40,810 nt of DNA, from NCBI GenBank assembly GCA_017505725.1, contig JAFVOR010000029.1, positions 1-40,810 on the forward strand, read 5' to 3'. A model generated the notes under the pieces. That model was not told the DNA's origin and searched no databases. It worked only from the letters and a program-made list of their open reading frames with translations. This document shows, in pieces, positions 30,336 through 32,086 of the stretch. Numbering within the stretch: the first letter of the stretch is position 1; each line of letters starts with the position of its first letter. Position numbers and translations under genes: made by a program. Source of the stretch: Alistipes sp. Its GTDB lineage: Bacteria > Bacteroidota > Bacteroidia > Bacteroidales > Rikenellaceae.

Positions 30336-30701
30336 ATGGTACGAGGATTATCTGCAGTAGGTCTATTGATTTGCTCAAATCTGTTTATGACATTGGCTTG
30401 GTATGGCCAGGTGATGTTCAAGAGCAAATTCGAGCGCATAGGAGTGGTTGCAGTCATATTCATCAGTTGGCTGGTGGCATTCTTTGAGTATTGCTTTATG
30501 ATTCCTGCCAACCGTATCGGTAGCGAGGTCTACGGTGGCCCATTCAACATCTGGGAGCTAAAGGTTATTCAGGAGGTCGTTTCGTTAACGGTCTTTGCGA
30601 TTGTCGTGCAACTCATTATGAAGAACGAAGCCCTCCGCTGGAATCATCTTGCAGGTTTTGCCTGCCTCGTCTTGGCGGTATTCTTTATTTTCAAGAAATA
30701 G
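30336..30701 (+). CDS. Small four-helix membrane protein, DUF486/DMT-like
   Basis: A 121-residue inner-membrane protein with four hydrophobic segments (GLSAVGLLICSNLFMTLAWY; VVAVIFISWLVAFFEYCFM; IQEVVSLTVFAIVVQLIM; LAGFACLVLAVFFIF). The NRIGSEVYGGPFNIWELKVIQEV segment and the overall layout match the DUF486 family, distantly similar to half-size drug/metabolite transporters. The ATG at 30336 (MVRGLSAVG) follows a good promoter; the 16-residue upstream extension overlaps it. The stop codon lies inside the terminator hairpin. No function is established that I know of. Confidence 0.82.
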   Translation: MVRGLSAVGLLICSNLFMTLAWYGQVMFKSKFERIGVVAVIFISWLVAFFEYCFMIPANRIGSEVYGGPFNIWELKVIQEVVSLTVFAIVVQLIMKNEALRWNHLAGFACLVLAVFFIFKK

Positions 30702-30729
30702 ACGAGTTCAGCTCGTCTATTTCTTTTTG
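30693..30729 (+). terminator. Rho-independent terminator of the DUF486-type gene
   Basis: A perfect 14-bp stem (AAGAAATAGACGAG with CTCGTCTATTTCTT) around a five-base loop ends in a T-run. It contains the TAG stop codon of the gene. Confidence 0.88.
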
Positions 30730-30764
30730 GCTATTAGCTGTTAGCTATCATCCATTGTTTTTTT
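30727..30764. repeat. Interspersed hairpin-bearing spacer element head (copy 2)
   Basis: TTGGCTATTAGC, CCATTG and a T-run resemble the spacer at 829-856. In both places hairpin modules follow directly. Confidence 0.45.
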
Positions 30765-30981
30765 TAGGAGTCGGGCTACGCCCTTGATAGGAGGCGCAAT
30801 TCGGAGAATTGCTTTTATAGGAGGCGTAGTCTGCGACTACTTGATAAGGTGCGACAGATTAGTTTTTCAGCGAAAATCACACCAAGCCGACCTGTCGGCA
30901 TCTCCTATAATAGGCACAAGCCTATCTCCCATAAAGGAGCTCTGCTCCGCCTCCTATCAAGCACCGCAGGTGCACCTCCTA
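30765..30981. repeat. Palindromic array of box-hairpin modules ('fishbone' element)
   Basis: Seven short hairpins lie next to a conserved box TAGGAGGC: on the left half box then hairpin, on the right half hairpin then inverted box. Hairpins are 30773-30783 (loop TAC), 30796-30812 (GGA), 30826-30840 (TGC), 30886-30899, 30910-30925, 30936-30948 (TCT) and 30961-30973 (GCA). The boxes pair across the element: 30784-30795 with 30949-30960 is a perfect 12-bp match, 30814-30823 with 30926-30935 matches 9 of 10, and 30765-30770 with 30976-30981 matches 6 of 6. Hairpin arms differ between modules and do not match their opposite numbers. No long gene is supported here; an open frame across it is repeat sequence. 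Confidence 0.75.
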
Positions 30982-31002
30982 TCTAATCCTATTTTCCGCA
31001 CT

Positions 31003-31037
31003 CAAAAAACACCCTCCGCAGAAATTCTGCAGAGGGT
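31003..31037 (-). terminator. Rho-independent terminator of the TIR gene
   Basis: On the minus strand ACCCTCTGCAGAA pairs with TTCTGCGGAGGGT (one mismatch), followed after one base by six T. Confidence 0.85.
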
Positions 31038-31064
31038 AAAATCTGAAAGCCAAAAGCCTAATTC

Positions 31065-32015
31065 CTAAAAAGCGGAGACAGCGCGCACATAGTGGTCGCC
31101 GTGCTTATGGTTGCGGTAGGCGTGTCCGTCACTCAAATCGACAAGCCACGCGTAAAACTCATTATATTCTGTCGACGACCAATACTTCTTAAAATCATCT
31201 TTGTTCTTTAATTCTTTGCCTTTTGCAGCCAATGTACGATTTACTGCGTCGTGAACAGCATCATCGAGGGTAAACCTATACAACTCCTCGATAGCCGGCA
31301 AATACCATCCTTCGCCCAAATCGGCGCACCAAGCAAAGGCGGGGTATTTCTCACGCCAACCATCAATCTGTTTTACCTTCGACATATTATTCGCACCATT
31401 ATGCTTATCATCAGCACCGATTAAGCGACTCCATTCGCTCTTTTCTGACAACATAAGTCTTTCTGACGACTCCGTCAGACTTACAATCTTTCCGTGCTTA
31501 CCATCGGCAGAGACCTCGAATACCACGCCTTGCTTCTTACCGTCATCGTAGTAGTCGCCAACTTTGTAGGTTTTGGTTTGTACGACTTGCTGAATAGGTT
31601 TAGATATTCCCAAATCTATATCGAGTAGTTTTGCAACATTTTCCGCCACACTACCAAAGAGGGTTTCCGGCTGCGGAAAAGCGTCTATCCAATTCAGATT
31701 TTTAAGATAGTACTTCTTTGCCCCCTTAAAGGCTTCGTCGGCAATACGGAATGTAAGTATTGGTTTCTTATCCTCGCTAGCAATCTCAATTTCACGGTCC
31801 ACTTGGTCTGACTTGTTGAAATTCTCCGAGAATACCACAACCATCATTCTGCTATAATCCAACGCCTCGACAATTGCTTTTGCCCATACCACTCCACGCG
31901 GTATATCACGATAAGCGACAAAACAACGGATTTTGCGCTCTTCGAGGTAGGCACACAAACCCTCCACGACTTTTTGATCGTAAGATGAGTAGCTTATAAA
32001 AACATCGTATTTCAT
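31065..32015 (-). CDS. TIR-domain protein with C-terminal DUF1566-like domain
   Basis: A 316-residue protein without signal peptide or membrane segment, so cytoplasmic. Residues 1-135 are a bacterial TIR domain: YDVFISYSSYDQ (3-14), FVAYRDIPRGVVWAKAI (32-48), MMVVVFSENF (57-66) and SDQVDREIEIA (69-79), where Glu75 lines up with the catalytic Glu of NAD-cleaving TIRs such as SARM1. Residues about 150-316 match DUF1566: YKVGDYYDDGKKQGVVFEV, GEGWYLPAIEEL (234-245), YWSSTEY and a terminal HYVRAVSAF. The same domain forms the small lipoprotein at 37468-37917. The start at 32015 is favoured because a good promoter ends 22 bases upstream; a longer frame to 32078 would contain that promoter. Bacterial TIRs often act in phage defence; the fusion's function is unknown. 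Confidence 0.88.
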   Translation of the reverse strand: MKYDVFISYSSYDQKVVEGLCAYLEERKIRCFVAYRDIPRGVVWAKAIVEALDYSRMMVVVFSENFNKSDQVDREIEIASEDKKPILTFRIADEAFKGAKKYYLKNLNWIDAFPQPETLFGSVAENVAKLLDIDLGISKPIQQVVQTKTYKVGDYYDDGKKQGVVFEVSADGKHGKIVSLTESSERLMLSEKSEWSRLIGADDKHNGANNMSKVKQIDGWREKYPAFAWCADLGEGWYLPAIEELYRFTLDDAVHDAVNRTLAAKGKELKNKDDFKKYWSSTEYNEFYAWLVDLSDGHAYRNHKHGDHYVRAVSAF

Positions 32016-32037
32016 TTGTTCGGGTACTTTCGAAACA

Positions 32038-32068
32038 CAAAAGTAAAACTTAATTTTGAAATGCACAA
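32038..32068 (-). promoter_or_regulatory. Promoter of the TIR-DUF1566 gene
   Basis: Minus-strand TTTG (32068-32065) and TACTTTTG (32045-32038) are about 19-20 bases apart. The leader would be about 15 bases. It interlocks with the argS promoter on the other strand. Confidence 0.6.
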
Positions 32069-32086
32069 AAAAAATCACTATCTTTG
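32055..32086 (+). promoter_or_regulatory. Promoter of argS
   Basis: TTTG at 32055-32058 and TATCTTTG at 32079-32086 are 20 bases apart, a full consensus match. The ATG is 37 bases after the -7 box. Confidence 0.7.

Follow-up and report, generated by a model that had tools for sequence, protein, structure and literature searches.

The array of short boxes and hairpins at positions 30765 to 30992 of the window (the whole 40,810-nucleotide stretch analysed here) is one copy of a dispersed, intergenic, non-coding DNA repeat family in gut Alistipes-like bacteria. Its box is a heptamer, GATAGGA, plus 3 nt, repeated with a period of 10 nt and interrupted at a fixed register by hairpins of 11 to 17 nt, which have arms of 5 to 7 bp and loops mostly of 3 nt. 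The best reading is a DNA mosaic repeat like the REP, BOX, and NIME elements, in a new architecture, and we consider it fairly probable that the family is such a dispersed, non-coding mosaic at the DNA level, built of period-10 boxes and fixed-register hairpins, with whole units lost or gained and with the long nested pairing across the array (the spine) as a by-product. The most valuable remainder is the head-to-head polarity of the arrays together with the replacement of their boxes.

The array and its locus

Two convergent genes flank the array: on the left one for a DMT_6 family protein (30336-30698, plus strand), and on the right one for a TIR and Lcl_C domain protein (31065-32018, minus strand). 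A terminator-like hairpin (31010-31038, minus strand) stands 3' of the right-hand gene, immediately outside the array, and the array is located beyond this terminator. The kilobase around it holds four terminator-like sites, compared with 1.0 in shuffles, two of the four inside the left-hand gene, and a scan for sigma-70-type promoters around the array found none above chance. The right-hand gene product fuses a TIR domain (TIR_2, with a weaker match to ThsB_TIR) to Lcl_C and is possibly a defence protein. The 3' part of its gene, together with the adjoining side of the array, is similar at other loci (L001 and L002 over 694 bp at 74.9%, L001 and L003 over 829 bp at 72.5%). By eye, the segment from about 30702 to 32085, which holds the array and the TIR/Lcl_C gene, is absent from genomes G047 and G110; there argS begins immediately after the DMT_6 gene, so both array and TIR/Lcl_C gene are missing.

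Forward boxes precede reverse boxes in the array, with hairpins e-d-c in the left half and b-x-g-a in the right. The outer forward box TAGGAG (30765-30770, plus strand) is followed by hairpin e (GGGC-TAC-GCCC, 30773-30783), which has the same position in 10 other aligned copies, with different loops and, in L058, one broken arm. Forward box TTGATAGGAGGC (30784-30795, plus) precedes hairpin d (GCAATTC-GGA-GAATTGC, 30796-30812), which also scores as terminator-like on the plus strand, and then come box TTTATAGGAGGC (30814-30825, plus), hairpin c (GTAGTC-TGC-GACTAC, 30826-30840), which has compensatory variants elsewhere (GCAGTC/GACTGC in L058, ATAGTC/GACTAT in L030), and a degenerate innermost forward box, TTGATAAGG (30841-30849, plus). 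The right half consists of hairpin b (GCCGAC-CT-GTCGGC, 30886-30899; GCCAAC/GTTGGC in L021 and L032), a reverse box placed by the RNA fold of the plus strand (30900-30909, minus), hairpin x (ATAGGC-ACAA-GCCTAT, 30910-30925), a reverse box read directly from the sequence (30926-30935, minus), hairpin g (GGAGC-TCT-GCTCC, 30936-30948), reverse box GCCTCCTATCAA from the stem search (30949-30960, minus), hairpin a (GCACC-GCA-GGTGC, 30961-30973), a word that recurs between other boxes in other species, and the outer reverse boxes CTCCTATCTAATCCTAT (30976-30992, minus).

An earlier note on this DNA had described a fishbone of nested stems with opposed hairpins stacked at each junction. All six hairpins that it named are present at its coordinates; its list left out the seventh (30886-30899) and the boxes at 30841-30849, 30900-30909, and 30987-30992. 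Its stems are there as well: 30784-30795 pairs with 30949-30960, in a perfect helix that reaches 14 bp (30783-30796 with 30948-30961), 30814-30823 pairs with 30926-30935 at 9 of 10 positions, and 30765-30770 pairs with 30976-30981 at 6 of 6. The observation itself is confirmed. The third junction is ambiguous, since the partner of box 30814-30825 may be either 30926-30935 or 30900-30909, the latter in the minimum free energy RNA fold of the plus strand. Both strands fold far better than dinucleotide shuffles (z of -6.7 and -5.0 for the plus and minus strands as RNA, and -6.5 and -8.3 with DNA parameters), with none of 200 shuffles per strand and parameter set folding as well.

The hairpins and the spine differ in what has been maintained. 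Hairpin pairs (n = 39) are standard in 96.2% of cases, and four of them have changed on both sides, whereas shuffles averaged 1.4 (0 of 500 shuffles as high) and slid controls gave none, a result in agreement with the note's proposal that arms are free to change as long as they pair; further pair types in the hairpin alignment numbered 7, below the shuffle mean of 7.7. These four pairs come from one alignment, and retention of hairpins in spite of changed letters was judged by eye in others; at one site (site C), the same array in two species has a hairpin compensated from GGAC/GTCC to GGGC/GCCC. Spine pairs (n = 27) are standard in 88.7% of cases, with two changed on both sides versus 1.4 in shuffles, which 218 of 500 shuffles equalled. 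For five box pairs, partners from the same locus paired no better than swapped ones (fractions of permutations at least as good of 0.26, 0.73, 0.10, 0.64, and 0.15, with 10, 6, 7, 8, and 10 copies), in a comparison of low power because the boxes vary little among copies. The covariation counts for hairpins and spine and the swap comparison all use few, related copies, with helix b of L027 misaligned in the alignment.

Wobble pairs are not in excess in either structure. The spine has 21 G.T and 30 A.C oppositions, and 71 distinct hairpins have 2 and 4, both penalised equally, the low number of mismatches being partly by construction because the detector rewards Watson-Crick pairs; since G.T does not exceed A.C, nothing points to RNA wobble on the strand that was read. 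Given a spine that lacks covariation and pairs no better with its own partners than with swapped ones, the long-range pairing is what any inverted pair of one-box arrays yields. It looks like a by-product of one box used both ways, the ribs behave as real hairpins, and selection of the fishbone spine for its structure finds no support. The array may form cruciform or single-stranded DNA hairpins.

Copies, unit turnover, and box replacement

Copies elsewhere in the genome, which the note had named as a check, were found. A 266-bp query gave 54 BLAST matches in its own genome, 46 of them at E≤1.3e-8, a number that includes the window itself and several fragments of a single locus, and 11 copies could be aligned (five from the own genome, five from G005, and one from RGIG9445), 10 of them beyond the window. 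Across the genus, 4 of 61 genomes, the own genome included, have a match at E≤0.001. A box-N15-24-box pattern occurs in 8 of 268 genomes of the family, all of them among 180 genomes from the own genus, with none in the 88 others, and some of these matches are box-only or coding-like (G144, one in G005, and several in G058, for example); the one match in G144 has no hairpin and appears to be coding. Within the order, the own genome apart, 1 of 197 genomes matched, with a coding-like match of the kind seen in G144. Reversed-pattern controls gave 1 match in 61 genomes, 2 in 268, and 2 in 198. The word GCACCNNNGGTGC followed by TTGATAGGA was found in 20 stretches, 19 of them from herbivore-gut Alistipes sp. 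MAGs and the twentieth from a Rubripirellula MAG with no visible array. Phages and plasmids gave no match, no viral contig carried the exact pattern, and Rfam returned no family at gathering score, its four weak matches lying far below at chance level. The family searches were BLAST and pattern searches in genomes that are incomplete MAGs.

Spacings between boxes show the modular build. Among 137 distinct same-strand GATRGGA neighbours less than 45 nt apart (an earlier count of 217 took overlapping loci repeatedly), 63 are spaced by 10 nt, 10 by 24, 25 by 25, and 11 by 27, and only 3 by 7, the spacing of contiguous heptamers. The register of the hairpins between boxes is nearly constant in three box types. 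All 11 copies have e-d-c in the left half, while on the right six copies have b-x-g-a, one has b-g-a, two have b-a, and two have just a, so that of the 10 further copies 4 lack two or three right-hand hairpins and 1 lacks one. Such unit-by-unit differences suggest that whole units have been gained or lost, for which the simplest route would be recombination between identical boxes, or slippage between them. The note's idea of a site grown from box-hairpin units thus appears to be right, with spacings of 10 without a hairpin and of 24, 25, or 27 with one, and with right halves that differ by units.

Grouped by hand, there are about 10 distinct hairpin words between GATAGGA boxes and about 20 over three box types. 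Among the 47 distinct hairpins with 3-nt loops, the loop is TNC in 14 and GNA in 7; GNA loops are stable, and the counts hint at such loops on the C-rich strand, without being decisive for a loop code. By eye, what follows most hairpins is TTGAT or TTAAT and no T run. We also observed a second composite repeat (L012, L014, L020, and L034), in which a frame (CAAGGCGCAAC or similar, up to GCGC) encloses different box arrays at each locus, and, at about 1355-1450 of L008, the words GGGCT, GCACC, and GCAAT with a further box, TATGGCG, beside an ordinary GATAGGA unit. Between its genes, the own genome carries a great many imperfect tandem arrays with periods of 7, 9, 10, and 14 and with units such as AATTTTT, TTTTGCA, GTTTTCC, CTAACGACC, and CCCTTACTAG.

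One hairpin word persists where boxes change. GCACC-TGC-GGTGC is flanked by GATAGGA boxes in G000, G005, G057, and G058, by ACTGGGG boxes in G049 and G047, and by TAAAGGGTAG boxes in G035 and G038. This 13-mer occurs in 15 of 61 genomes; its context, judged by eye at up to four loci per genome, looks coding in G016, G031, G048, and G060 and resembles a single hairpin in G011, G025, and G029. Beside the same left-hand gene, three species have arrays with three different boxes. The G005 site (L202; fold z -4.1) has kept the outermost unit around an interior box TAGGGATAA, and the G057 site (L199; fold z -6.3) has an array with a GAATGGCA box that includes GGGCT-GAA-AGCCC; by eye and by folding, the same new box is present in the forward and reverse arms of both. 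Identity of the site across species was defined by the left-hand gene and, by eye, a trailing CCCTCCGC hairpin. The left-hand gene has other neighbours in G058, G049, G139, G003, and G035 and no match in G135, and its matches in G011, G144, and G038 lay outside the neighbour comparison. A further head-to-head array, with a TAAAGAGTAG box, folds at z -5.0 (L092).

At sites A, D, E, and F, each matched on one flank only, an array stands beside a gene in one species and is absent beside the matching gene in another, and the upstream neighbour of the G005 copy L032 is not the same in G000. By eye, near-identical interior arrays of TAGGGATAA occur at different G005 and G057 loci (L040, L202, and L026), a similarity that suggests recent movement between loci or species.

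Head-to-head polarity and its possible origins

In GATAGGA arrays, the direction of the boxes switches from forward to reverse 28 times and from reverse to forward once. Forward-then-reverse arrays make up 27 of 44, many of them related copies, and one-strand arrays make up 16 of 44, among which the window array was counted because its left boxes diverge too much, or are spaced too widely, for the pattern. A search free of any box, for tandem arrays of period 8 to 11 with strong skew, found that opposed neighbouring arrays have the G-rich member first in 22 of 25 cases (p 1.6e-4). Arrays with kindred units account for 14 of these 22 and for all 3 exceptions (14 of 17, p 0.013), and the own genome gave 11 of 14 (p 0.06); 160 kb of stretches from four box-less genomes held 6 arrays and 0 pairs. 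G-rich arrays also lie further to the left in their gaps than C-rich ones, at 0.29 versus 0.59 of the gap in G000 (p 2e-4) and 0.38 versus 0.60 in other array-bearing genomes (p 0.0014), with lone arrays taken alone showing no significant positional polarity. One array of GGGTAAA boxes (about 1590-1700 of L017) reads, by eye, C-rich first, contrary to the rule.

The sense strand is G-rich near 3' ends in 35 of 46 arrays (p 5e-4) and near 5' ends in 11 of 32 (not significant, p 0.11), and tandem gaps have 29 G-rich-sense and 25 C-rich-sense arrays (p 0.68). We therefore reject a choice of strand by transcription; together, these counts indicate that polarity tracks gap geometry and not transcription. 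A first count placed 15 of 41 arrays in convergent gaps, compared with 8 of 61 background gaps (Fisher p 0.008), on crude ORF calls that misfiled the window array as tandem though its gene neighbours converge; this enrichment was not reproduced in a second count (13 of 78 skewed arrays against 80 of 388 gaps, p 0.53).

As a simple rule that lends itself to counting, the polarity would help to separate models of transposition, slippage, and end growth. In the mosaic reading that we favour, short hairpins are set at one fixed register into a period-10 box array, whole units would be lost or gained, and a forward G-rich block followed in many arrays by a reverse C-rich block lets one strand fold as a fishbone. 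It is probably as single-stranded or cruciform DNA that the hairpins act or are copied. The arrays occupy intergenic gaps and would spread within and between genomes, and their polarity would come either of strand-specific growth or of a G-rich end like that of a transposon.

Neutral debris of slippage, with short tandem repeats and quasi-palindrome correction acting without selection or dedicated machinery, is an unlikely source that still deserves weighing. The intergenic space is indeed full of arrays of period 7, 9, 10, and 14, boxes vary by species, and copying from arm to arm would yield near-perfect hairpins. However, fold-back on either strand should produce G-first and C-first pairs equally, in contrast to the 22 of 25 seen, and the same hairpin word is kept between different boxes in several species.

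A MITE-like transposable palindrome, with inverted ends TAGGAG...CTCCTA, a transposase in trans, and a diverged interior, seems to us improbable. Transposon ends usually start G-rich, which would account for the polarity, and the inverted ends are present in the 11 copies (97% of cells pair, with L004 and L027 each carrying one mismatch), which occupy unrelated loci; one-flank comparisons in which a gene has an array next to it in one species and its counterpart in another has none point the same way. Yet the terminal repeats are indistinguishable from another box, one-strand arrays are common, the polarity persists across differing boxes, and the 11 copies show no target-site duplication (36 for own flanks, swapped mean 35.0). 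The Y1_Tnp search identified no transposase: mobilisation of the RAYT/IS200 type was rejected after none of 14 genus genomes (78 to 98% complete) had a Y1_Tnp domain (PF01797) over the cut-off, the weak matches in 4 of the 14 including a best one in an ORF that by eye reads as DprA. TTGAT and TTAC, which stand beside the hairpins and resemble RAYT/IS200-type target motifs, had suggested this kind of mobilisation.

In a further speculation, which we consider a long shot, the head-to-head rule would be a fossil of strand-specific growth, with G-rich 10-nt repeats added or copied back at only a single type of 3' end before these ends are joined; the machinery of each species would set its own box, and hairpins would mark pauses or joins. 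Fusion sites of eukaryotic telomeres have the same form, (G-rich)n-(C-rich)n. If true, this would be a bacterial repeat-adding process unlike slippage or transposition. A reverse transcriptase as the repeat adder was rejected, as RVT_1 was found in 4 of 9 array-bearing genomes (G000, G058, G139, and G047) and in 5 of 9 without a box-pattern match, which is no association.

The weakest alternative, a functional structured RNA or a bidirectional terminator-like element at 3' ends, is very doubtful: both strands fold strongly, hairpins covary, hairpin d is terminator-like, and terminator-like CCCTCCGC hairpins lie next to the array at this locus and, judged by eye, at L021, L024, L030, and L032, but the spine does not covary beyond shuffles or pair in a locus-specific way, wobble is not in excess, the array lies outside the right-hand terminator, most hairpins have, by eye, TTGAT or TTAAT after them instead of a T run, the scan for sigma-70-type promoters and Rfam at gathering score were negative, and tandem gaps show no strand preference relative to transcription. 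The note's structured RNA with a selected nested spine is not supported on these grounds, and the array is unlikely to be an RNA.

Relation to known repeat systems

The literature searched, as far as its available parts go, contains no description that we found of this box-hairpin architecture. In PMC3733652, REPs have one conserved palindrome per family with a GTAG or CGTC tag, and REP/BIME elements are, like ours, short intergenic hairpins in many copies that are often clustered. They differ in that our family has about 10 hairpin words between GATAGGA boxes versus one tagged palindrome, and no RAYT (Y1) transposase over the cut-off in 14 genomes. An unpaired GTAG or CGTC is not the rule here, the hairpins mostly being preceded by GGC, GTC, TTC, or GC after TAGGA, and GTAG is present in the TAAAGGGTAG box of G035 and G038.

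NIMEs are made up of dRS3 and RS, the dRS3 inverted repeat (ATTCCC-N8-GGGAAT) being the constant part. Like them, our arrays are intergenic mosaics in which a short repeat alternates with other sequence; in contrast to them, the direct box is constant and the hairpins vary, and the exact dRS3 pattern was found in 0 of 210 loci. STRRs are the heptamer repeats of cyanobacteria, and STRR and TAACTGA heptamers are contiguous, head to tail, whereas our unit is a heptamer plus 3 nt, interrupted by hairpins and often head to head, with 63 of 137 spacings at 10 and 3 of 137 at 7. The intergenic position and sporadic distribution of heptamer direct repeats are shared, and TAACTGA repeats also occur in five Bacteroidetes (PMC4679880). 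MITE-type terminal inverted repeats (TAGGAG/CTCCTA) are present in the 11 copies and target-site duplications are not, and, among few, related copies, the covariation expected of structured RNAs is seen in local helices and not in long-range ones.

In PMC3049150, which also names the neisserial intergenic mosaic elements, the pneumococcal BOX has the order boxA-boxB(n)-boxC and is over-represented between convergent genes. BOX shares with our family a modular build, a variable number of inner units, and the ability to form stem-loops, and one of our two counts agrees with its convergent-gene excess; compared by description, our family differs in having no visible boxA/B/C order, a 10-nt period, and a head-to-head arrangement. 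The hairpin word that recurs between unrelated boxes, the replacement of boxes with matching arms, and the polarity are not obviously predicted by the REP, BOX, NIME, and MITE models compared. The family lacks the tested defining features of REP and NIME repeats, and in kind it is close to REP, BOX, and NIME repeats.
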